Origin: Candidatus Cloacimonadota bacterium
GTDB taxonomy: Bacteria; Cloacimonadota; Cloacimonadia; Cloacimonadales; Cloacimonadaceae
Length of the DNA stretch: 37,082 nt
Direction: 5' to 3'
Assembly (NCBI GenBank): GCA_029561955.1
Contig: JAKQWO010000035.1
Coordinates: 1-37,082 of the forward strand
The notes beneath the pieces are model-generated. The model saw nothing but the letters and a program-made list of their open reading frames with translations, had not been told where the DNA came from and searched no databases. This document shows positions 15,963 through 31,493 of this stretch, in pieces. The stretch's first letter is position 1. Every line of letters starts with the position of its first letter. The translations under genes and the position numbers were made by a program.

Positions 15963-16050
15963 CCCTTGCTTAGCCGCAGGGTGATGCCGTGGTGATACTC
16001 GGGTTTTTCCCGGGAGGCACCGAGTAATCACCGGGCGGGTAAGCAAGGAA
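15963..16050 (-). repeat. 88-bp palindromic repeat, copy A
   Basis: The reverse complement of these 88 bases matches 26146-26233 at about 79 of 88 positions by eye. The unit is itself an imperfect palindrome: ends CCTTGCTTA and TAAGCAAGG, inner arms CCGGTGATTACTCGG and its near complement, and a central CCCG/CGGG hairpin around AAAAA. Similarity stops sharply at both ends. This looks like a REP/MITE-type element that can fold into one long hairpin. Confidence 0.8.
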
Positions 16051-16067
16051 GGGGGCAGCTACGCTGC

Positions 16068-16301
16068 AGTTGTGAGTTGTGAGTTGTGAGTTGTGAGCTA
16101 TCCCAGGGTGTAGATGGGAAGCGATGTTTTGGGGATGTGGGGCCCTAAATTATAATAGAATGTCACGACAGCTTGCACCCTTAATTCGTGTAATTCGTGG
16201 AACAAAAAAGAAGCACCGAGCCATGAGAATCTATACCACAACTACCTGTATCTACGAAACTTGCGCAGCGACTCACAACTCACAACTCACAACTCACAAC
16301 T
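16068..16301. repeat. 30-bp perfect inverted repeat made of heptamer arrays
   Basis: Positions 16068-16097 are about four copies of GTTGTGA. Positions 16272-16301 are the exact reverse complement of the same 30 bases. Just outside each array is a small GC-rich palindrome-like motif (GCAGCTACGCTGC at 16056-16068; CGGCGCAGCC at 16305-16314). The 174 bases between show a doubled AATTCGTG (16183-16199) but no gene. A similar GCGGC-TGC-GCCGC then AGTTGTCAGTTG motif recurs at 36884-36906, so this is a repeat family in this genome. Confidence 0.75.
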
Positions 16302-16322
16302 GGACGGCGCAGCCGGCCCCGG

Positions 16323-20476: not shown

Positions 20477-20696
20477 TGATTTATCCTTCATTTGCATGTG
20501 TAAAGAGTAGTGAAGGGTCAGAAAAAGGGGTGGGGGTTATTTGTCAAGTTTGGAGATATTGACGGGTGCTGAAAACACCAAAGATCGTTTTCAAATGGAT
20601 TATGCTTGCCCACATTGAGGGCGTCTTATCGTACCACAGCAAATGCCATGCATGCTGCTATCAGGAGATAGGAGATTTTCAAAAACGCTTTTTAGC

Positions 20697-20724
20697 TTGA
20701 CAGATATGTCAGCCGTATTATCGT
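20697..20724 (+). promoter_or_regulatory. Candidate promoter and operator for the phosphatase/kinase operon
   Basis: TTGACA at 20697-20702 is followed after 16 bases by TATCGT at 20719-20724, a fair sigma-70 pair. The inverted repeat TGACA-GATA-TGTCA (20698-20711) overlaps the -35 box, so a repressor could compete with RNA polymerase there. Both are short motifs and could be chance. Confidence 0.35.
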
Positions 20725-20814
20725 TGTCTTGAGACGGGTGGATATTGTGTCCCCCGGATGCGTATAGCTGCACCGTCATCATCAAGAAAGATATTGATAG
20801 CACAAGGAGACGCC

Positions 20815-20952
20815 ATGAATTTCAGGATCTATTCCCAGCCGGAAATTTCTAAAAACGGGGCTTCCCAGTCCCTCAAGCTCAAAAATGCTCTGCCAAGATC
20901 AGCATTGATCAGAGCGATAACATCAGATAGTCTCTACCTGCCATGGCAATAA
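20815..20952 (+). CDS. Possible 45-residue peptide ahead of the PP2C gene
   Basis: ATG 20815 has a strong AAGGAG at 20804-20809 and opens a 45-codon frame beginning MNFRIYSQPEISKNG and ending LYLPWQ. It has no signal peptide, membrane helix or known motif. It ends 50 bases before the PP2C start and would be on the same transcript. It may be a genuine small gene, a regulatory leader peptide, or a chance frame; the good ribosome binding site is the main support. Confidence 0.35.
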   Translation: MNFRIYSQPEISKNGASQSLKLKNALPRSALIRAITSDSLYLPWQ

Positions 20953-21002
20953 CAGATTTCAGAACATCAAAGACAACACCAGCTTATTGAAAGGAGGTGT
21001 AT

Positions 21003-21725
21003 ATGTTTAGTGTTTCCTATTTTTGCAACCCGGGCAACCCTCAAAGAGCGCATCAAGACAGGGTTTATGTCAATGGGGTTGTGTTGACTGAAGGGATCTT
21101 ACATGCCGTCGGCCGCCGTTCACTCAGGTGTTTCGTAGCGGATGGGGTCGGAAGTATGATCAACAGCGAACATGCAGCGCAATACGTCCTGCGTCAAATA
21201 GGCAGGCTCGACAATGTCATTAACAGCCAAGAACGGGATCTTTTCCAGACTCACCTGCTCAAGATAAACAAGGACTTGGTACAGCTCAATAGAAACAGTG
21301 AGAAGTATTGGAAATCTGCCACCACTCTCTGCGGCCTGGTCCTGGATGAGCATGGTTTGATGACTGTTAATGTGGGGGATTCGGAGATTTTGGTTTTCAG
21401 GGGCGACATGCTGAGCAGGGTGACAACGCCGCAAGTATATGATGAATTGACACCTAACAGCCCTCTGATCAGTTATCTGGGCTCAAGTCGAGAGGAAATG
21501 AGAGTGGATTTCGATTCTTTTTATCATCAGTATAACAAGGGTGATATCGTGATCGTAACCACGGACGGCCTGCTGAAAGCCATCTCCAAAAAGGACTTGA
21601 GAAGCATCCTGAACGGGCAGGGAACACTGCAGCAAAAGGTCGCCGAGGTCTATTCCGTTCTCCAAGAACAGCCTGCACCGGATAATCTGGGAGCGATATT
21701 CATCACAGAGGAGGAAAGCACGTGA
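21003..21725 (+). CDS. PP2C-family serine/threonine phosphatase
   Basis: 240 residues from ATG 21003, with AAGGAGG at 20991-20997. The metal-binding and core PP2C motifs are in order: HQDRV (Asp19), VADGVGSM (Asp47, Gly48), NVGDSE (Asp126), TTDGL (Asp188) and DNLG (Asp227, Asn228). It should remove phosphate from Ser/Thr residues in the cytoplasm. It is the first certain gene of the operon that also encodes the kinase, so it most likely reverses that kinase's action on itself or on the FHA partner. Its TGA overlaps the GTG of the next gene. Confidence 0.88.
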   Translation: MFSVSYFCNPGNPQRAHQDRVYVNGVVLTEGILHAVGRRSLRCFVADGVGSMINSEHAAQYVLRQIGRLDNVINSQERDLFQTHLLKINKDLVQLNRNSEKYWKSATTLCGLVLDEHGLMTVNVGDSEILVFRGDMLSRVTTPQVYDELTPNSPLISYLGSSREEMRVDFDSFYHQYNKGDIVIVTTDGLLKAISKKDLRSILNGQGTLQQKVAEVYSVLQEQPAPDNLGAIFITEEEST

Positions 21726-21940
21726 GGTTGAAGTGGTATCATTGGCTGATCATCATCATCTTGGTGGCACAAATACTCCCATTGGGAGCGGTGCTCAGAC
21801 CCTTTCTGATCTTGATATTGCTGTATATCGGTGTGAGAATTCTGCTGGGAGGTCTGGGGCTAAAGGCAAATTATTGTCAGCATTGCGGGGCAAGGGTAGC
21901 CTATGGAAAGTATTGTAAAAATTGTGGCAGGAGGATATGA
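21722..21940 (+). CDS. Small membrane protein with a C-terminal zinc ribbon
   Basis: 72 residues starting at GTG 21722, overlapping the PP2C stop as GTGA. Two hydrophobic segments (about 8-22 and 26-44) are followed by a zinc ribbon with Cys52, Cys55, Cys65 and Cys68. The ribbon probably faces the cytoplasm if the two helices form a hairpin. Its place between phosphatase and membrane kinase suggests an adaptor or anchoring role, but that is inference. I do not recognise a named family. Confidence 0.7.
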   Translation: MRLKWYHWLIIIILVAQILPLGAVLRPFLILILLYIGVRILLGGLGLKANYCQHCGARVAYGKYCKNCGRRI

Positions 21941-21943
21941 CAC

Positions 21944-24900
21944 ATGACACACACAAACAAGACTGATATTTTGAATCAGACTCCTGGGGAAGTGAGGAGA
22001 GAAGCTCCTCCATCCATAAATCTCCAGACTGTGAACGAAGAGACCGGCGAGCCCAGACAATTCCTGATCTTACAGGAGGGTGAGACACTAAACTTGAGGA
22101 TTGATAATGCGGAGGTGCCCTTCCGGATTGCCGGTGTGATCTCAGAGCCAGGCACAACCGGTGAGGCTGTCGTCTACAGGGTCTTGGATGCCGATGACCA
22201 GGAATACGCTCTGAAGGTATATCGGATACTGAGCCGCGACGAAGAGCCAAACCCAGTTGCCCTGAAAAGGATCAGGAAAATCGGTGACGCCGATATCCTG
22301 CGCCTGTATGCCTACGGTATGGGGCCAAATAGAATCATGAATGCCTACTGTTGGGAGTTGCAGGCCTATGCCCGTGGAGGCAACCTGCTGTCTGTGCCCA
22401 GCCTGAAGCAGAAATACACTCCCAAATTCCTGGAGGAAGTGATTGTCCCACAGATTCTCAATGGGATTTGGACATTGCACGATGATTTGATCTACCACTG
22501 TGACCTGAAACCTCAGAATATCTTCTATCTGGATGAAGGCCAGAATGACATCGTCATCGGCGACTATGGCTCAGCCAAGACCAAGGAAAAGGGGAGCGGG
22601 GATTCCTTTATTACAACTCATACCATAAGAGGTTCACGTTTCTATGTCCCACCGGAGTTTTTTGGAAGCATCGTGCGTGATAAATCTGACTACTATTCCA
22701 TGGGCTGCATTCTCTTGGAATTGCTCTATTCTGAACTGTTTGCAGAGGACGATGTCGCAGCTAAGGATAAGATAAAACTGCTTCAAAATAACCATGAGAA
22801 ACTAATCGACTATAATCCGGACTATCAGCATTTGAATAGCCTGATTGAAGGTTGCACGCTTAACAACTGGGAGCTACGCTGGGGCAGGAAGGAGGTCGAG
22901 GAGTGGCAGAGAGGTGGCTCGCCTGCCATCGTTTATCGGGGCATGGGTATGCAGACCAACGAGTGGAAGTTGACCCGAGAAAAGGTTTTAAGAACTGCGG
23001 AGGATTTTATTGACCATGTTCATAGTCTGACCCCTGATGATTTCTATACAGAGCTGATTGAGGACGAGAACACTTACAACAAGATGCGCACCTGGCTGGG
23101 TGATCTGCTATCCTCGGAGGATTCAAAACACATCGACACGATACGTAATACGCAGGGGCTGAAAGGTAGACCTCAGATACGCGAGGGAATTCTCCGCTAT
23201 CTCGTACCCGAGCTTCCCCTGGTCTGCGAGGGTCAGAGCTTTGACCTGGCTGCCAGTGATCCCTACACCGCCGTTAGAAATTATCTGATTCATACCTGCA
23301 AATGCCTGAGCAACTTCAATCCGGTCATGGCCAAGGAGTATGTTTTTCAATTGGAGTTTGCCCTCAAGCAACTGCTCAGGACGGCTAAAGACGACGATCC
23401 CAAGATAGCTCACTATACCCGCATCCTGAACATTATGAGCCTGATCATGGAAAACGCAGGCAAGGTAAGCGCTGAGTCTGATTTGGAAGTAGGAAGCATT
23501 TCTGCGATACAACTGCTGGGTACCACCTGCGACCACCAGCCAGATGAAAAGTTGCTCAATCTGCGCCTGAAACTGCTGGGCTTCCTGTTTGAGCATCACA
23601 TTGACGCTGTCAAATCAGCACAACTACCTGAGCTGATTACCACGATCAGGCAAAGCCTCGCGGAAAGCGGTTTGTATACCAATTTGATTGAGTTGATAAA
23701 CGCAACTCCAAAAAACAGCAATCTGCTGAAATGGTCTGCCCAATTCCTGCCCGCCAATCTATCAGAAATATATTCAGACTTGGTGAACAGGCTGCAAAGC
23801 TATGATAAGCAAAAGCAAAGCTTGCTATTGGGCTATTTTTGGTCTGGAAAACACGATGAGTATTCAGAACAGAAGATCAGAGAGAAGATAAAAACGCTGG
23901 ATACCAACTATCTTGGCATGTCTGAGGATGACCTTGTCAATGGCTTGATGGATGTCCAATTTGAGATCAATTTTGCCAGGGCAACACACTTGGCAGAGAG
24001 CGATTTTCTTACCGGATTGGCGAAAGTTTACGCACCCCGAGCAAGTTCTTTATTGGATTTCTTCTCTTTGGGGTGGATAGGGAATCTGGAAGCGTTACAT
24101 ACACTGGTGATCAAGCTTGCATACATGGTTAATCCAGATAGGGGAATGCGTATTAGCGGCAGCTTATGCCTGCAGTCGATCGGAGCATATCTACGGGAAT
24201 TGCTCATAGGGAATTGCTATTACGAAGCAGACGATCCAGAGCTGCAAGTGTTTCTTGAGCATCAAAATCGCAGTGATCTGCTGGAATTGGGTTATAATGA
24301 GTTTCTCTGGGAATCCATAGACCTGTTAGAAGGCAATGAGTTAACTTACTCACGCTACAAAGATCTTGAACTGTCGAGTGTGAAGATAGACATCAGGACG
24401 GGGTTAGTCAGGGTGAATGGTTCTTTGCATCCGCTGTTAGTCGTGAAAAACAGCAAACAAGCCGATGCGGAACCTCAAATCTTCTATCAAAAGAAGGATC
24501 AACAGTTAGCCTATCGAGAATTGGATTTACACATCGGTTACCGAAGAAACAGCATAACCGCGGACGGTAACAGCCTGAAGAACAAGGAAGATGTGCTTTG
24601 GCTGGAAGGTGAAATCCTCCAAGGAACAATCACTCCCGGCACAGGAGGTTCGAGCCAAGGGCAGCGACCAAACTCGACATTCTCAGTCTGCCCTGCAAAA
24701 CTGTCGGCATTTGCCACAAAAAGGCGGTTAATGCTCTCTCGTGAAATTGAGGTGTATATCGGCGACTGGAGTAAGCAGTTTGCAAAAGCCAATGAAGTTG
24801 CACTTTTCCATGGTCTGCAGTGGCTGATTTATGCTATCTTGCTTTTTGTCAATCTGTTGGCCTTGACCGGTCCCAGGCTTTTTTATCACCGTTTTGGAAT

Positions 24901-26083
24901 CTTGTGGGTGATCATTAGTGCAGTTCTGTGGTTAATGACCACAGGCATAAAAGTGATCCCGGTAAAACTAAGGGAATTGTCTTTCGCCTATATAGTTGTG
25001 CCCTATGTGATAGCCCTTTTTTTTAGTTTGTCCAATACGTCGGAACCCTATTTCCCTTACCTGCTCAAGGCACAGTTGGCCGTCACTACTATTGCTTGTT
25101 TGATAGCGATTGTAAGCATGCTTCATGTGTATCGAAAACAAAGCAAGTTGCTGAAAAAAGCTGCCTTCCTGCCGGTGGTTGGGATTTTGACGGCATTGGG
25201 ATGTCTGAGTGCCATTTACGTGAAAGATTTGGGTGACAATCTCTTTCCCTCCCACTTTGCGAGCCAAGACTCTATGATCCAGATGATAGAAGTTGAGGGA
25301 GGCAGTTACTATTTCCAAGGTCGAGAGGTAATTATCTCTGACTTTTACATCGCAGAACACGAAACACGTTATGCTGATTTCAGCAGGTTTGTAGCAAACA
25401 CCAATTATGTAACGGAAGCAGAAGAAGGTGACGGGTCTTACGTTTACACTGATCAATCCCTATTGGGGCTCTTCAGGACAGGCGGTACTTGGCACGCAGA
25501 TACCGCATCCTGGAGGAATAATTTCTTTAAAAAGCATACAGATCAAGACCCAGTGGTATGCGTTTCCTTCAAGGATGCGGCAACCTTCTGTAACTGGCTG
25601 AGTTTCTGGGAGGGGTATGATGAATGTTATACGATCAAAGGAAATAAGGTGACCTGCAATTGGGACGCAAACGGATACCGGTTACCTACTGAAGCAGAGT
25701 GGGAGTATGCAGCTTCCGGTGGCAAGTATTCAAATAGTTATCAATACGCAGGTTCGGATAATGTGAACAAAGTAGCTTGGCGTCCAGGAAATGCAAAATA
25801 TCGGATCCATCCAGTAAAGCGGAAAAAGCCCAATGAGCTGGGTATTTATGATCTCAGTGGCAATGTCTCCGAAATGTGTTGGGATTACTACCAGGAAGAG
25901 CCACCAAAACCTGGAACAAAGGACCCTCACGGCCCGAAAACTGGCAAATATAGGTGTCTCAGAGGCGGTTCCTGGCTATATCGTAATGGCATGGTTTATA
26001 CGAAAAGGGTACACAACAGTTTTGAAGATAAGCCCTTACAGAGCGCATCATTTGTCGGTTTTAGGGTGGTCAGAAAGATGTAG
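21944..26083 (+). CDS. Membrane Ser/Thr kinase with extracytoplasmic FGE-like sensor domain
   Basis: 1379 residues; AGGAGG at 21929-21934 supports the start. A protein kinase domain fills about residues 60-340: loop VISEPGTTGEAVVYRV, Lys91 in YALKVYR, HCDLKPQN (185-192, Asp187, Asn192), DYG at 207-209 in place of DFG, and PPE at 236-238. The Arg of the HRD motif is Cys186, a non-RD kinase. Residues 340-950 are mostly helical with no recognised family. About five membrane helices lie between 957 and 1092, so the last 270 residues should be outside. These form an FGE-sulfatase/C-type-lectin-like domain (RLPTEAEWEYAASGG, GIYDLSGNVSEMCWD, CLRGGSWLYRNG, GFRVVRK). The cysteine pair used by true formylglycine enzymes is absent, so it probably binds a ligand. 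Confidence 0.88.
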   Translation: MTHTNKTDILNQTPGEVRREAPPSINLQTVNEETGEPRQFLILQEGETLNLRIDNAEVPFRIAGVISEPGTTGEAVVYRVLDADDQEYALKVYRILSRDEEPNPVALKRIRKIGDADILRLYAYGMGPNRIMNAYCWELQAYARGGNLLSVPSLKQKYTPKFLEEVIVPQILNGIWTLHDDLIYHCDLKPQNIFYLDEGQNDIVIGDYGSAKTKEKGSGDSFITTHTIRGSRFYVPPEFFGSIVRDKSDYYSMGCILLELLYSELFAEDDVAAKDKIKLLQNNHEKLIDYNPDYQHLNSLIEGCTLNNWELRWGRKEVEEWQRGGSPAIVYRGMGMQTNEWKLTREKVLRTAEDFIDHVHSLTPDDFYTELIEDENTYNKMRTWLGDLLSSEDSKHIDTIRNTQGLKGRPQIREGILRYLVPELPLVCEGQSFDLAASDPYTAVRNYLIHTCKCLSNFNPVMAKEYVFQLEFALKQLLRTAKDDDPKIAHYTRILNIMSLIMENAGKVSAESDLEVGSISAIQLLGTTCDHQPDEKLLNLRLKLLGFLFEHHIDAVKSAQLPELITTIRQSLAESGLYTNLIELINATPKNSNLLKWSAQFLPANLSEIYSDLVNRLQSYDKQKQSLLLGYFWSGKHDEYSEQKIREKIKTLDTNYLGMSEDDLVNGLMDVQFEINFARATHLAESDFLTGLAKVYAPRASSLLDFFSLGWIGNLEALHTLVIKLAYMVNPDRGMRISGSLCLQSIGAYLRELLIGNCYYEADDPELQVFLEHQNRSDLLELGYNEFLWESIDLLEGNELTYSRYKDLELSSVKIDIRTGLVRVNGSLHPLLVVKNSKQADAEPQIFYQKKDQQLAYRELDLHIGYRRNSITADGNSLKNKEDVLWLEGEILQGTITPGTGGSSQGQRPNSTFSVCPAKLSAFATKRRLMLSREIEVYIGDWSKQFAKANEVALFHGLQWLIYAILLFVNLLALTGPRLFYHRFGILWVIISAVLWLMTTGIKVIPVKLRELSFAYIVVPYVIALFFSLSNTSEPYFPYLLKAQLAVTTIACLIAIVSMLHVYRKQSKLLKKAAFLPVVGILTALGCLSAIYVKDLGDNLFPSHFASQDSMIQMIEVEGGSYYFQGREVIISDFYIAEHETRYADFSRFVANTNYVTEAEEGDGSYVYTDQSLLGLFRTGGTWHADTASWRNNFFKKHTDQDPVVCVSFKDAATFCNWLSFWEGYDECYTIKGNKVTCNWDANGYRLPTEAEWEYAASGGKYSNSYQYAGSDNVNKVAWRPGNAKYRIHPVKRKKPNELGIYDLSGNVSEMCWDYYQEEPPKPGTKDPHGPKTGKYRCLRGGSWLYRNGMVYTKRVHNSFEDKPLQSASFVGFRVVRKM

Positions 26084-26376
26084 AGCGATTAGCTTGAAGA
26101 TTGTCCCGGATAATGCAGTTATTCCTGTGTGACCCTTCCTACCTCTTCCTTGCTTAGCCGCCCGGTGATTACTCGGAGCCACTCGGGAAAAACCCGAGTA
26201 TCGCCACGGCATCGCCCTGCGGGTAAGTAAGGAAGAAGCAGGGGTACTCGCCACACCGCCCAAGAAGAAAGTAACTGGCAGTTTCATTGGGTCACTTTGG
26301 CAAGCGTCCATACTGCAGCGATATGCAACCGCCGGCTACCGCACTACTTGGGTTGGGAAATCCTGACAGGTGTGGG
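26084..26376. other. Convergent gap between kinase and FHA genes
   Basis: 293 bases with no gene. It contains the 88-bp palindromic repeat B, which can fold around CGGG-AAAAA-CCCG and may act as a two-way transcription stop. A stretch GGGTCACTTTGGCAAGCG at 26289-26306 recurs with few changes at 31258-31275. Confidence 0.6.
26146..26233 (+). repeat. 88-bp palindromic repeat, copy B
   Basis: About 90 percent identical, by eye, to the reverse complement of 15963-16050. Ends are TTCCTTGCTTAG and TAAGTAAGGA, with nested arms and a central ACTCGGG-AAAAA-CCCGAGT hairpin. Several differences from copy A fall in the arms and do not destroy the fold. It lies exactly where the two signalling operons converge. 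Confidence 0.8.
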
Positions 26377-26946
26377 CTAAGGTAGCTCAGTCATGTGTCC
26401 GCAATCTGGACACATTGGTGGGAGCTCGCTGCTGTCGATATACTCCGTTTCCCGGCCACAGCTATGACAACGATAGACCGATTTACGGGCGATGGTTTCC
26501 CCGGCTGAATCACGGAGTTCGGGCAGCTTGATCTCCACCAGAAACTCCTCGTTAGCCAAGACCAGATGCTGGCCGTCCTCCAGCAACACTCTGGATTTCA
26601 GCCGGATACCGTCCAGAAAGGTTCCGTTGGTTGATCCCAGATCACAAATGTAAAAACCAGCGTCGGCATAGTCGATATTGCAGTGCTTCCGGCTGATCGC
26701 CAGGTTTTGGAAGATCTCCTCTCCATAACTTTCCCGCCCTATGGTTTGCGTCCCTTCGGCAATCAGGCTGATCTTTTCACCGGTGGACAACTGCGTTATC
26801 CACAAGACTGGTTTATCCGATGGCGCAGGTTCAGATGAGGTCTCCACTTGCACATCCCGACCGCAAACCGGACAGGTGAGTATATTCGAGCTCGACTCTG
26901 CGCCGGTTCTTTGCAGTTCGGTGCCACAAAAATCGCATTTGGTCAT
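26377..26946 (-). CDS. FHA-domain protein with zinc ribbons at both ends
   Basis: 189 residues. An N-terminal zinc ribbon has Cys4/Cys7 and Cys25/Cys28. An FHA domain fills about 47-140 with the phosphothreonine-binding residues Gly70-Arg71, Ser85-Arg86-Lys87-His88 and Gly-Ser-Thr-Asn107-Gly. A C-terminal zinc ribbon has Cys160/Cys163 and Cys179/Cys182. FHA domains read phosphothreonine, so this is the natural reader of the membrane kinase's signal. It is the last gene of the minus-strand operon and lies 23 bases after the radical SAM gene. The kinase operon ends on the other side of a repeat. Confidence 0.85.
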   Translation of the reverse strand: MTKCDFCGTELQRTGAESSSNILTCPVCGRDVQVETSSEPAPSDKPVLWITQLSTGEKISLIAEGTQTIGRESYGEEIFQNLAISRKHCNIDYADAGFYICDLGSTNGTFLDGIRLKSRVLLEDGQHLVLANEEFLVEIKLPELRDSAGETIARKSVYRCHSCGRETEYIDSSELPPMCPDCGHMTELP

Positions 26947-26969
26947 GATATGATTCTCCTTTCGTTATT

Positions 26970-27575
26970 TTACTCCCATGTTAGACCACGTTTGGCCAAC
27001 AGTTCTTTCAAATTGGCGACATCCCCTGCTTTGGGGATACCACTGAGGATTGCCTTGGTATCCAGATTGACAGACAAGGCAGTCCCATTGGCCAGGGTGG
27101 GCAATTCCAACACTTCACCAGCGGCAAATTGATAGATTCTCTGGTTTGCAGAGCCCCGGATATTGTCTTCCGATGGGGAGTTGCTCCTAAACCGGCCGTC
27201 GATCAGGTAATCAAAAGCTTCCTGAAAATATAGGTCAGGATGCGCTCCGCTGAGCTCTTCCAAGGTGTAGCCACTATAGACAAGCAGATTCAGTTTGCAA
27301 CTATGTTTCAGGATGGAAGCCAGATATACCAAAGCATCATACTGGTCAAAAGGCTCTCCGCCACTGAACGTGATCCCATCGTAACCCTCGCTGATTTCCA
27401 TCAATAGGATTGCCAAAGACATGATATTCACGCTCACCCCAGCTTCAGGATTCCAGGTTTCCGGATTCAGGCAGTCGGGACAATGGATGCTACAGCCCTG
27501 CGTCCACAAGGCGATACGTTTGCCGGGGCCCAAATTGTAGACTGGATACAGGATCTGCCTAAGCTTCAGAAACAT
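26970..27575 (-). CDS. Radical SAM 4Fe-4S protein of the NrdG/activase type
   Basis: 201 residues. Cys28, Cys32 and Cys35 in GCSIHCPDC form the CxxxCxxC cluster site, and SGGEPF (71-76) binds SAM. The N-terminal [15 protein letters not shown] is like anaerobic ribonucleotide reductase and glycyl-radical activating enzymes. The normal partner, a glycyl-radical enzyme, is not nearby. Instead it overlaps the AAA+ ATPase gene by 10 bases and precedes the FHA gene. It may activate or modify a partner in this system. The last 60 residues ([12 protein letters not shown] onward) are an addition beyond the core fold. Confidence 0.85.
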
Positions 27576-29476
27576 GCAAAGACGACCCTGTGAGTGCCAT
27601 TTGGATCGGTAACGACTTCCGCCTTGATCTTCAGGTTTTTCAGCTCGCTGCGGTCGTTGAGAAATGAGGTGAGACTACTGATGATGTAACTCTCGATGCG
27701 GTTGTTGATCCCGCGTCCACCGTCTATCAGCTTTTCGATCAGAATCTTATTGCGAAAGTCCTCAATGAAGACATCACTAAAATGAATCTCGCTGGAATAC
27801 AGTTTCATCATGTTTTTGGTTATCGTGTTCAGCTTCATTTTCACTATCTCCTGATCGTAGGGCTGGCGGATAAAATCAAAGATCACAAAGTTCTCGCCAA
27901 AGCGGTTGCGAATCTCCGGACGGTTGAGCTTGGAGTTGAAAAAGAAATCTATCTCCTTCTGAATCTTGTCCCGCATGGTTTCATAACTATCCGTTTTCTC
28001 GGGATCATCAGGAAAGCGTGGATCATATAACACATTTGGCTCCCGTTTACCAAGCCTACCCTTCTTGTAAATACCAAGATTGCTGGTAAAGATGATCAAG
28101 GTTTGCGAAAAGTATACGGTGTTGCCCTGGGAGTCGGTCAGTCTGCCATCGTCCAAAATCTGTAAGAACTTGTCGAACACTTTATCATGTGCCTTTTCAA
28201 TCTCGTCAAACAGGATAATCGAAAAAGGCTTTTCCCTGACGCGGCTCGTTAACTGTCCGCCTTCTTCATAGCCGATGTAACCGGGCGGCGCACCAATCAG
28301 TTTGACATCCGAATTGGAATCGTTGTACTCGCTCATATCAAAGCGGATGATGGCGTCTTCCATCCCAAAGATCAACTCGGCGACGGATTTGGCCAGCTCC
28401 GTTTTCCCCACACCGGTCGGCCCGGCAAAAAACAAGACTCCCTTGGGCTTGGTTCTCATATTGGCTTGCTCAAGACCATCCAGACCGAGCCTTGCCCGCC
28501 TGATCACTTCCACCGTTTTGGCGATTGCATTGTCCTGGCCTTTGACCCTCTTTTTGAGCTCAGATTCAGCTTTATCAATCCTTTCTTTATCCAGCTTCAG
28601 CCAAAAGTTTTCCTTGGTGCCAAATTTATACAAGTCAACAATCTGGCGGATTTCAGACAATGGCAGCGATGTCTTCAACGAGATAGAGCGTAGGTTTTCC
28701 AGCTCACGGTTGGACAGCCCGTCAGTATGATCCAGAAAAACATTCTCGATTTGCCTTTGATCAGGTGGCTCCTTATCGGGGTCTTCAGGTGCGTAATATT
28801 GAGCTTGTGCTTGGAAATAGAGCTTGCGTTCCTCTTTGTTTGGCTTGGCGATCTCAATCGAGCGGGCATGAGGATTATTGACCAAGAGCCAAGACGGAGC
28901 ATCACAGAGATTGTCCAAAACCATCACTATGCAACTACGCAGAAAATGCTTGTTTTTAAAGGGTTTGGTCTCGGCTGCGGCCTTGAGGATAGTCAGATAT
29001 ATAAGGCGTTCTTTTTCGGCTAAGCGTTTGGGGTCGGCCGTTATTCTGGAGCTGAAATTGTAAACACACGCACACAACTTGTTGGTGTTGGCCATTATCT
29101 GTCTATACAGGTCAACTGCATCGTTTTCAAGATACTTATCCGGTTCCTTGGCTTTCACATCGACCAATTGTTCGACTGTCTGCTTAAAATCCGGCCTTCC
29201 ATCTCGTGAGAAAACCGAAAAGCCATCTATCACATCGTAATAGAACACCAGATCAAATTCCTCATCCAAGAAAAAGTAGCGCAGAAATTGCCCTGCCAGA
29301 TTGTCCATGAGACAAAACTCCAGCTCCTCCTTGCTCTGCGCTTTCCCGAAGTTCAGAGGATAGTAGTAGCAATCATAGATATTTCCATGCAGGAAAAACA
29401 GTGACTTCAGACCGAGGAATCTGTGCAGATCCTGTGTCCATCTCGGCATAACAGTAATCAATTCGCTGTCAATCAT
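27566..29476 (-). CDS. ClpB-like AAA+ ATPase with a degenerate first ATPase domain
   Basis: 636 residues. The C-terminal half is a good class-I Clp second ATPase domain: Walker A GPTGVGKT (352-359), pore loop GYIGYEEGG (399-407), Walker [11 protein letters not shown] (421-430), sensor 1 in FTSNLG (463-468) and sensor 2 near [10 protein letters not shown]. The N-terminal 290 residues look like an AAA fold ([31 protein letters not shown]) without Walker A, and there is no Clp N-domain or ClpB middle domain. It should thread or remodel a protein using ATP. It overlaps the coiled-coil gene by 8 bases and the radical SAM gene by 10, so all three are probably made together. Confidence 0.88.
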
Positions 29477-31016
29477 GATCCATCCTTAAAATTCTTTGTT
29501 CTTCTTCGTGGGCGACTTTTTCTTGCCGCAGAAGGTGTTCGACTCTACCCCTCAATCGTTCGGGAATGGGAACCAGCCTTTCTGCTGCGGCTCCCAGTGG
29601 CTCGTTCTCACCCCTGTTCACGATCCCGCGCAGGGCAAGCATTCTCAACAACTTACGGTAATCATCGCAGACCTTGCTCATCTCGATTACCTTGCGATCC
29701 TTTTGGGCTTGTGACAAATCCCCAATCTGCTCCGGAATCAGGAAATTGATCAAAAACCGATCATTCAGGTATTCAAAGCAGATGAAATTGTCCTGATTGG
29801 GAACCTGGAACAGGTATATGTTATCAGAAAAATCAATCACCGTGGTGTCCGACACCACTTCGTAGTTCAGATATCTGAGAGCATTGATAATCTGGTTCTT
29901 TTCATATTGAACCTGAGTTGCACGGATCTTTTCCGCTTCCCGCCTTCTTTCTTCTTCAGCTATGGTAGCGTCACAGAGTAGACACAGGCGTGCATGCTGG
30001 CTCTCCTTGATGGTAGACTCATTCAATGCACTTTGTAGACTCTCGATGGCTTCGCTGACTTGTGGTGACTGGGAGGAAAGCTGCTGTAATTTTAGCAGAT
30101 GATTGTTTAGATCAGCTCTTCTTCCCAGGCTTTCTTTACGCAAATGCAGATCAGTTTTAAGGTGTCTAAATCTATGCAAGAGAGAGCTATCATAACACTC
30201 CCTCATAGTATTGAACTCGGCCACAAGATCATGGACATCGACTTGGTTGGGCATCTCTGCTATCAAAGTCTCAATCTCTGCTTTGATCTTTGCCAGCGGA
30301 TTATCTTGCTGCGCCTGTTGCCGCCGGTGCTGCATTTCCTTGATGTTCATCAGGTTGCTGTAGTCTGCCCGAAGTCTAAAAACATCCGTCTGAAGCTGCT
30401 CCAACTTAGTTAGTTTGCCAGTTTTATCATCGCTAAGGTTTTGGGTTAAACGGACTTCATGTTTATGCAGATCAATCGCAAACTGCGGGAGCTTAAAATC
30501 CACCTTGACGGCATCTAATCTGCCAATGTGTTGAGTGTGGTCAGATTCCGATATCGTGTCACGACAGGAATCAAGATAGGATTTGATTTCTTGTTTAGCA
30601 GAGCTAACGGTTTTTGTCGCATTCTCTGTTTCCTGCTTTAAGTCCCGATAAGACTGCAGTGATTTGTGATAATCCTTTTCCATTGTAGAGCATGTGTTGA
30701 AATGCTGCTCCAAGGTGGATTTCATCTGATTCAAGGATCTTAGCTTTTGACTGACTTTATCCGAAAATTGATTATACTCATCTTGAGTTATGGTTCCGGT
30801 AAACGGCACGTTGAAAGCAGCCAAGCAAGCTTTGATCTGAGAATCCCGACCTTCCAGGTAAGTGGAGCCTTTGATATTGATGCCATGCTCCCGATCATGG
30901 ATACAGAAATCCTTTAATTTGCCCAATAGCGTTTGAATACGAGCTTGTTGCTTGAATATCTCCACCAAGCTGGCATCAAAAACGCGTGCACTATAAGTAT
31001 AAGTCAAATGGCTCAT
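29469..31016 (-). CDS. Coiled-coil protein of the signalling island
   Basis: 515 residues, no signal peptide or membrane helix. Residues about 75-385 are strongly charged helical sequence with heptad-like spacing, including a CLLC near residue 347. The last 130 residues ([32 protein letters not shown]) look like a small mixed domain. It is the first gene of the operon and overlaps the AAA+ gene, suggesting a scaffold or substrate of that ATPase. I do not recognise the family. The ribosome binding site before ATG 31016 is weak. Confidence 0.7.
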
Positions 31017-31353
31017 ATAACTACACTCTTTTGAATATCTTAGGTTGGTTTAAATCTCCACTTATTGATTCGAAGGTTCCTTGAGGACGTCTCTACTTCC
31101 TCGCCAATCACATCTATAGAAAGTCAATCGACTCGTTGCATCGTTTTAACACTGCTGATAAAAGTCAAGTGTTTTCTTACATCGAGCCACCTTGCCGCGC
31201 TGGGATTGAATCTTGCAGATGCGGCACTGCTACCTTTGGCTACTGTCGGCTACTTTTTGGTCGCTTTGGCAAGCGGCTATACTTGACGGCGGTTCAGCGA
31301 CCGCCCGTACATCGCAGTCTGTAGCTGCGAAGATAGCCCTGAAATTCAAACCA
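31017..31353. other. Intergenic region upstream of the coiled-coil gene
   Basis: No convincing gene. The promoter of the minus-strand signalling operon should be near its left end. A short frame at 31065-31286 on the other strand has no family features. The right part holds the repeated GGTCGCTTTGGCAAGCG (31259-31275) and the 24-bp palindrome-like repeat at 31287-31310. Confidence 0.5.
31287..31310 (-). repeat. 24-bp GC-rich inverted repeat unit, copy 1
   Basis: The reverse complement of 31287-31310 matches 36911-36934 at 23 of 24 positions (GTACGGGCGGTCGC start). The unit is internally palindromic (GGGCGGT with ACCGCC) and can form a small hairpin. Both copies are intergenic. Confidence 0.7.
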
Positions 31354-31418: not shown

Positions 31419-31493
31419 TGGCTCCGGAAGAGGGATTTGAACCCCCGGCCTAGTGGTTAACAGCCACCCGCTCTACCGCTGAGCTATTCCGGA
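31419..31493 (-). tRNA. tRNA-Asn (anticodon GTT)
   Basis: On the minus strand the acceptor arm TCCGGAA pairs with TTCCGGA, followed by discriminator G and an encoded CCA (75 bases with CCA). The D arm is GCTC-AGCGGTA-GAGC, the anticodon stem GGTGG/CCACT encloses CTGTTAA with anticodon GTT, and the T arm carries GTTCAAATC. All arms fold. A single tRNA gene, with its own terminator downstream. Confidence 0.96.

Follow-up and report, generated by a model that had tools for sequence, protein, structure and literature searches.

A putative phospho-regulated remodelling module with a Hsp100-like ATPase, a radical SAM protein and a new coiled-coil family

In the TerY-P type triads and the DO-GTPase/GAP1-N2 systems, as treated in the relevant parts of PMC7159879 (eLife 2020), a zinc-ribbon kinase and a PP2C phosphatase, in some cases with a vWA protein, are encoded by linked genes, some of them together with Hsp70, and these sets are thought to be conflict systems. 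The FtsH ternary conflict systems of the same source are centred on an AAA+ protein and include a radical SAM effector, which is said there to modify a separately encoded peptide. These NTP-dependent conflict systems, in which the relevant parts of PMC7159879 place kinase/PP2C/zinc ribbon, Hsp70 and radical SAM components around vWA-MoxR or GTPase cores, are the nearest published theme to a locus that we analysed in a Candidatus Cloacimonadota bacterium (genome of 2.1 Mb in 81 contigs). The locus lies in contig JAKQWO010000035.1 (C27 in our numbering), whose whole length of 37,082 nucleotides is referred to below as the window, and it consists of two converging operons with six genes. None of the open-access papers in our literature search describes this six-gene combination, PMC7159879 being the only thematic relative.

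Genome comparisons showed that the Ser/Thr kinase, the PP2C phosphatase, the FHA protein, the NrdG-like radical SAM protein, the Hsp100 ATPase with a dead first (D1) and a live second (D2) AAA domain, and the coiled-coil (CC) protein of MSG type make up one horizontally scattered module. The best explanation of the island, to which we give a probability of roughly one half, is that it encodes a single phospho-regulated protein-remodelling machine with an anti-invader output. All six open reading frames named in a preliminary description of this DNA were recovered with the same coordinates, and so were the overlaps of 8-10 nucleotides (nt) that the AAA+ gene forms with the CC gene (29469-29476) and with the radical SAM gene (27566-27575). 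The features of the island are as follows.

20561-31351, no strand: variable segment (island) with both operons; its flanks are the conserved glgP and tRNA-Asn/DUF975
20997-21725, plus strand: PP2C-type protein phosphatase (eraser); Pfam PP2C_2, metal-binding motifs intact
21944-26083, plus strand: Ser/Thr kinase with FGE-sulfatase-like C-terminus (writer, putative receptor); Pfam and transmembrane estimate
26138-26242, no strand: intergenic palindromic repeat at the point where the operons converge; inverted copies, hairpin calculation
26377-26946, minus strand: zinc ribbon-FHA-zinc ribbon protein (phospho-reader); Pfam FHA, pThr-binding motif residues
26970-27575, minus strand: NrdG-like radical SAM protein; Fer4_12 and NrdG models, family alignment
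27566-29476, minus strand: Hsp100/Clp-like AAA+ ATPase; AlphaFold2, Foldseek, family alignment
29469-31016, minus strand: CC protein of a new family; 30 homologues, structure model
31419-31493, minus strand: tRNA-Asn gene at the island border; ARAGORN, Rfam, same gene in the sister genomes G033 and G029

Like the TerY-P triads and the DO-GTPase/GAP1-N2 systems, as far as these are set out in PMC7159879, the locus has a kinase, a PP2C phosphatase and a zinc ribbon encoded by linked genes. Unlike them, it has no vWA, MoxR, GTPase or GAP1 gene beside it, and the combination of vWA/TerY with PP2C and kinase that marks TerY-P was not found in the island; vWA and Hsp70-like genes were seen only beside a cyanobacterial subtype of the module (locus L145). 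The FtsH ternary systems differ in their vWA-MoxR/FtsH core, and their treatment in the relevant parts of PMC7159879 contains no kinase/PP2C/FHA set with a Hsp100-like AAA+ protein. Mokosh (MkoA) and Hhe/PDC-S37 are approached by two module relatives, L036 and L037, in which a kinase lies beside or is fused to a superfamily 1 (SF1) helicase-nuclease, whereas the window has the kinase part only. To our knowledge, the AAA+, radical SAM, FHA and CC proteins are not components of Mokosh or Hhe/PDC-S37.

Joint occurrence of the six genes

Two genomes of the same genus, G033 and G029, match the window through base 20560 and then again from 31351, and the entire 10.8 kb in between is missing from both, between glgP and the tRNA-Asn gene. 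Since the two operons are absent together between conserved flanks, they were gained or lost as a single segment. The sister genomes carry just 2.1-2.9 kb between these flanks, with an unrelated gene for a secreted repeat protein, and in each of the three genomes the segment ends next to the tRNA-Asn gene; no att-type (attachment-site) direct repeat of 10 nt or more was found at the tRNA-Asn side of the island. To judge from these comparisons, the glgP/tRNA-Asn site is a variable integration site. The secreted repeat protein, which has a C-terminal sorting-like tail, is encoded at 6590-8266 of L178 (G033) and at 14945-16672 of L179 (G029).

Homologues were detected with a profile of the N-terminal half of the AAA+ protein, that is, an alignment of its degenerate D1, which does not match ClpB. 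This profile replaced a full-length query, as only 10 of 80 loci retrieved with the latter were true full-length homologues, the rest being of ClpB type. In the host phylum 4 of 125 genomes were positive. Five other classes, each denoted here by a genome that belongs to it, gave rates of about 0.3-2%: Leptolyngbya 5/242 and, with the seed genome included in each count, Lachnospiraceae 6/291, Streptomyces 6/247, Burkholderia 6/274 and Bradyrhizobium 1/289. Plasmid-borne homologues were found in Aristaeella, Rhizobium, Caballeronia and Geminocystis. This sparse, scattered pattern on chromosomes and plasmids, which extends from relatives of the host to Clostridia, Cyanobacteria, Actinobacteria and Proteobacteria, is typical of an accessory module on the move by horizontal transfer. 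The same profile gave no usable pattern against viral contigs.

The neighbourhoods of 39 loci, a non-random sample picked by the AAA N-domain alone, were then compared; several of these loci lie on short contigs, so that the counts of neighbours are lower bounds. Within about 10 kb of the AAA+ gene a radical SAM gene was present in at least 30 loci, a kinase gene in at least 22, an FHA gene in at least 19 and a PP2C gene in at least 9. All six families occur together in seven loci (the window, L139, L036, L144, L149, L150 and L155), which span four phyla and have the families mostly in a single co-oriented cluster. Pairwise distances were strongly correlated between AAA+ and radical SAM (r=0.84), AAA+ and CC (0.89), AAA+ and kinase (0.89) and CC and kinase (0.92), values reached in none of 500 permutations, and also between radical SAM and CC (r=0.86); FHA and PP2C distances showed no correlation (r=0.07, n=9). 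In the closest relative, L141 of genome G006, the AAA+ protein is 63-64% identical to that of the window, and the order of CC, AAA+, radical SAM and FHA genes, with a converging gene that ends in an FGE domain, equals the layout of the window. The recurrence of the same families in other phyla puts the set far beyond chance, and we consider it highly probable that the six genes form one module. The neighbourhood comparison proposed in the preliminary description thus bore out the association of its radical SAM and FHA genes with the AAA+ gene, and its notion of one functional unit gains further from the joint absence of both operons in the sister genomes. In L150 (3580-6814) the module is preceded by genes for a ClpP-like protease and for a coupling protein of TraG/VirD4 type, which suggests that this copy may be carried on a conjugative element.

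The encoded proteins

The kinase protein (1379 residues) matches Pfam Pkinase (3.7e-23, residues 74-314) and, in its C-terminal part, FGE-sulfatase (3.9e-46), and its catalytic motif HCDLKPQN is intact. The middle of the protein is helical, and about five predicted transmembrane segments (residues 957-1087) separate the kinase from the FGE-like end, which would be outside the cell if the kinase is inside. The phosphatase matches PP2C_2 (7e-11) with intact DGVG/DG/DN motifs, and the FHA protein matches Pfam FHA (1.2e-13), with the motif GR...SRKH...STNGT and Cys-rich, zinc-ribbon-like ends. The writer, eraser and reader recognised in the preliminary description have intact catalytic or binding motifs, and a phospho-switch acting through FHA docking is probable. 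The entry of an outside signal through the FGE domain, which had been proposed as well, was not borne out: the kinase-FGE fusion was seen again only in the cyanobacterial L144, an FGE-ending gene converges on L141, and in most relatives the kinases have other C-termini.

The AAA+ protein of the window matches Pfam AAA_2 (7.5e-50) and comprises a degenerate D1 (about residues 1-290) and an intact ClpB-like D2 (residues 300-620). Its AlphaFold2 model, for which, as for the other structure prediction, the alignment was built from genome loci only, has a predicted local distance difference test (pLDDT) score of 89.4, and Foldseek matched it to ClpC/ClpA/ClpB over its whole length (about 670 columns, best E 4.4e-33); the N-terminal profile matched the VCP/Vps4 AAA region in the PDB weakly (E 0.012). 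In the family alignment D1 lacks Walker A and has GNxxD at that place, with an identity of about 20-28% among distant members, while in D2 Walker A/B and the pore loop are invariant or nearly so and the sensor and arginine positions are kept. The protein thus shares with the ClpB/ClpC/ClpV unfoldases the two-AAA build and a ClpB-like D2 fold with pore loop; unlike them, it has no active nucleotide site in D1 and no ClpN domain match. It is a translocase of Hsp100 type in which one of the rings works, and it is not ClpV. Its earlier designation as ClpB-like fits D2, but had overlooked the second, degenerate AAA domain in front.

The radical SAM protein matches Fer4_12/radical SAM in Pfam (6.6e-29) and the NrdG model (6e-29), the latter with 101 bits, below the curated equivalog cut-off of 126.1. 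It shares with NrdG, the activase of class III ribonucleotide reductase, the radical SAM core and the motifs CxxxCxxC, GGEP and RGSxNQ in the family alignment (GSANQ in the window copy), the last of which we take to be of NrdG type by reference to E. coli NrdG; it differs from NrdG in its score and in the lack of an NrdD partner in the module. A housekeeping NrdG function was considered and rejected, because the nrdD gene of the host, on contig C35, adjoins an activase of its own, assigned by eye to the NrdG2 type. Homologues of the island protein are also present in aerobes, e.g. Rhizobium and Streptomyces, and the phage proteins matched with the radical SAM protein as query are ordinary NrdG/PflA types.

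The CC protein (515 residues), overlooked as a family in the preliminary description, is covered by none of the models of Pfam, NCBIfam (2026) and PADLOC (2023 release), and by these comparisons it is a family new to Pfam/NCBIfam and a core family of the module. Thirty members, of soluble and membrane-anchored subtypes, were assembled by profile and by eye. All 30 start with Met-Ser and share one Cys, which is some 50-75 residues away from the C-terminal end (C450 in the window copy); most have Gly in the N-terminus, and in 22 the start is MSG(x)PK or close to it. The start pattern [MV]SG(x)[P/T]K, required in frames of at least 150 codons, was found in 22 loci, at no gene other than that of the CC protein, and most of these starts are preceded by a sequence that resembles a ribosome-binding site. 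The structure model (pLDDT 72.6) consists of a disordered N-terminal tail (pLDDT about 37 for the first 12 residues), helices, and a C-terminal alpha-beta3-alpha domain that holds the invariant Cys. A fold search against the PDB gave no match at E <1, the C-terminal domain included, and neither this search nor Pfam revealed a glycyl-radical enzyme motif or fold; a PGYGV-like sequence of proteobacterial members was rejected as such a motif, as it is not conserved. Conservation combined with flexibility is what one would expect of the N-terminus if it were a handle for an unfoldase or a site of modification. Membrane-anchored variants that retain the C-terminal Cys were observed in L170 (7375-8574, MSGEV), L153 (10320-11702, MSSGG) and L154 (13282-15615, MSAGI).

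Proposed mechanism and rival explanations

In the mechanism that we propose, the kinase would mark a component, which may be the CC protein, the AAA+ protein or an effector, and PP2C would reset it, while the FHA protein would anchor the phosphorylated form to the complex. By means of its active D2, the AAA+ ring would thread the CC scaffold and remodel it, with the flexible conserved N-terminus as the point of grip; engagement of this tail is plausible, at somewhat less than even odds. The radical SAM protein would use radical chemistry to modify a partner. The best candidate for this partner is the CC protein, which offers a conserved Gly in the N-terminus and an invariant Cys, and such an action on the CC protein is rather doubtful. 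The output would be a conflict response against invaders, through SF1 helicase/nuclease effectors where these are encoded, and we slightly favour an anti-invader role of the module. The boldest combination, in which a phospho-relay gates a Hsp100 motor on a tagged CC protein made radical-bearing or cross-linked by the NrdG-type enzyme, would be a new immune or signalling machine and is quite unlikely as a whole; if true, it would mean that phosphorylation controls a protein radical, or a modification made by radical chemistry, outside metabolism. A defence function would imply a conflict system in which Ser/Thr phosphorylation controls a Hsp100 motor and a radical enzyme, and any other function a new phospho-regulated protein-remodelling pathway.

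The link to defence comes from the relatives. In L036 a DUF4011-SF1 helicase-MTES_1575 nuclease protein is encoded ahead of the module (PADLOC PDC-S37 1309 bits, Hhe 545 bits). The kinase of L037 is fused to these same domains, and their profiles find matches in L038, L045 and L046 as well. MkoA-like helicases adjoin L045 and L151, and the type III-B CRISPR genes Cmr1, Cas10, Cmr4, Cmr5 and Cmr6 follow directly after L048. Several findings weigh against the proposed machine or its anti-invader output. The SF1 helicase (DUF4011) and nuclease domains present in L036, L037 and L151 are absent from the window island, and no other recognisable defence effector lies beside the module in the window; since no such effector is adjacent, the defence reading of this copy rests on its relatives. 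The distance correlations keep the species phylogeny in, and the four proteobacterial loci with fusions are mutually related. PP2C is present in just 9 of the 39 loci, and some AAA+ homologues stand alone: the clostridial L041, L042 and L043 have a full-length AAA+ relative without CC, radical SAM or kinase genes. The CC protein of the window starts with MSHLTYTY, so that Ser2 and the Cys are kept and G-P-K is lost. Finally, MSGSPK is retained in the cyanobacterial L142 and L143, where no radical SAM gene lies within about 10 kb, so that the CC tail is not necessarily there for the radical SAM protein.

The last two points bear equally on protein maturation, in which the radical SAM protein would modify the CC protein (glycyl radical, thioether or other) at the N-terminal Gly and/or the Cys, the AAA+ protein would act as a maturase, either presenting the substrate or extracting it, the phosphorylation proteins would time the reaction, and the modified CC protein would be the effector. 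The frequency of radical SAM genes near AAA+, their co-variation with the CC family, the NrdG-type motifs in a host whose nrdD has its own activase, and the Gly and Cys of the CC family speak for it, but the lack of any glycyl-radical enzyme signature in the CC protein and the loci just mentioned make it unlikely. A stress or envelope response outside defence would have the FGE-like outer domain of the membrane kinase sense a ligand or damage and the AAA+ protein disaggregate or reset the coiled-coil scaffold, the island being an adaptive accessory locus. This would agree with membrane kinases of varied C-termini (FGE in the window, L141 and L144), with membrane-anchored CC-like variants as in L170 and L153, with the vWA and Hsp70-like neighbours in L145 and with the missing defence effector in the window; however, sporadic spread, plasmid carriage, helicase-nuclease fusions and the adjacent type III-B CRISPR genes point to conflict, and we regard such a response as distinctly improbable.

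The threonine-phosphorylation branch of type VI secretion (PpkA/PppA/Fha, ClpV) has similar parts, namely a kinase, a PP2C, an FHA reader and a Hsp100-type ATPase, and the module could be a degenerate or derived form of it. We rejected this membership, because no Tss genes were found among the scanned open reading frames of the window or the annotated or scanned neighbours of homologues, the ClpV1 model (TIGR03345) scored 202 bits against a cut-off of 885, in the D2 region only, and the TagH model scored 33 against a cut-off of 120; the degenerate D1 and the additional radical SAM and MSG coiled-coil families are also foreign to the branch, which leaves this origin very improbable. The absence of Tss, vWA and MoxR genes beside the island had been noticed in the preliminary description, whose comparison with type VI and TerY-P holds as an analogy but not as membership. 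It had also asked whether the set might be the edge of a known locus, which is not the case for type VI; for conflict systems it applies in part, in that relatives are tied to helicase-nuclease proteins, though no named system fits. A mere collection of unrelated genes in a variable island could be imagined, as the tRNA-side locus is variable and holds another gene in the sister genomes, but the joint recurrence of six families in four phyla with correlated distances makes it the most improbable of all. The phospho-regulated remodelling machine remains the best explanation, and the earlier interpretation is upheld in its single unit and its separation from type VI, not in its point of signal entry.

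Neighbouring genes and repeats

Other genes recur around the relatives. DUF4236 proteins are encoded near the module in L036 (1-267), L038 (10091-11809) and L148 (6227-7504), and the protein of L148 is matched as well by a model for type IV methyl-directed restriction enzymes. The cyanobacterial subtype (L145, 2899-7332, and L146) encodes vWA, Hsp70-like and coiled-coil proteins upstream of the radical SAM protein, an MSGTPK protein and the AAA+ protein. On a Geminocystis plasmid (L039, 3557-9284) the radical SAM gene is separated from the MSGSPK/AAA+ pair by three small GTPase genes, which by eye look DO-GTPase-like, and the AAA+ relative of L042 and L043 is followed by a small protein that looks conserved.

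The palindromic repeat (about 91-105 nt) between the converging operons covers 26142-26232 in the window, with a 91-nt inverted copy at 15964-16054 and two further copies in the sister genome G033 (L178, 12337-12442 and 19123-19228). Its predicted hairpin has an energy of -62.8 kcal/mol (z -6.7), and it sits exactly between the operons; it may be a bidirectional terminator. Adjoining the copy at 15964-16054, we also observed a 31-nt perfect inverted repeat with a GTTGTGA-type unit, at 16067-16097 and 16272-16302, about 170 nt apart.

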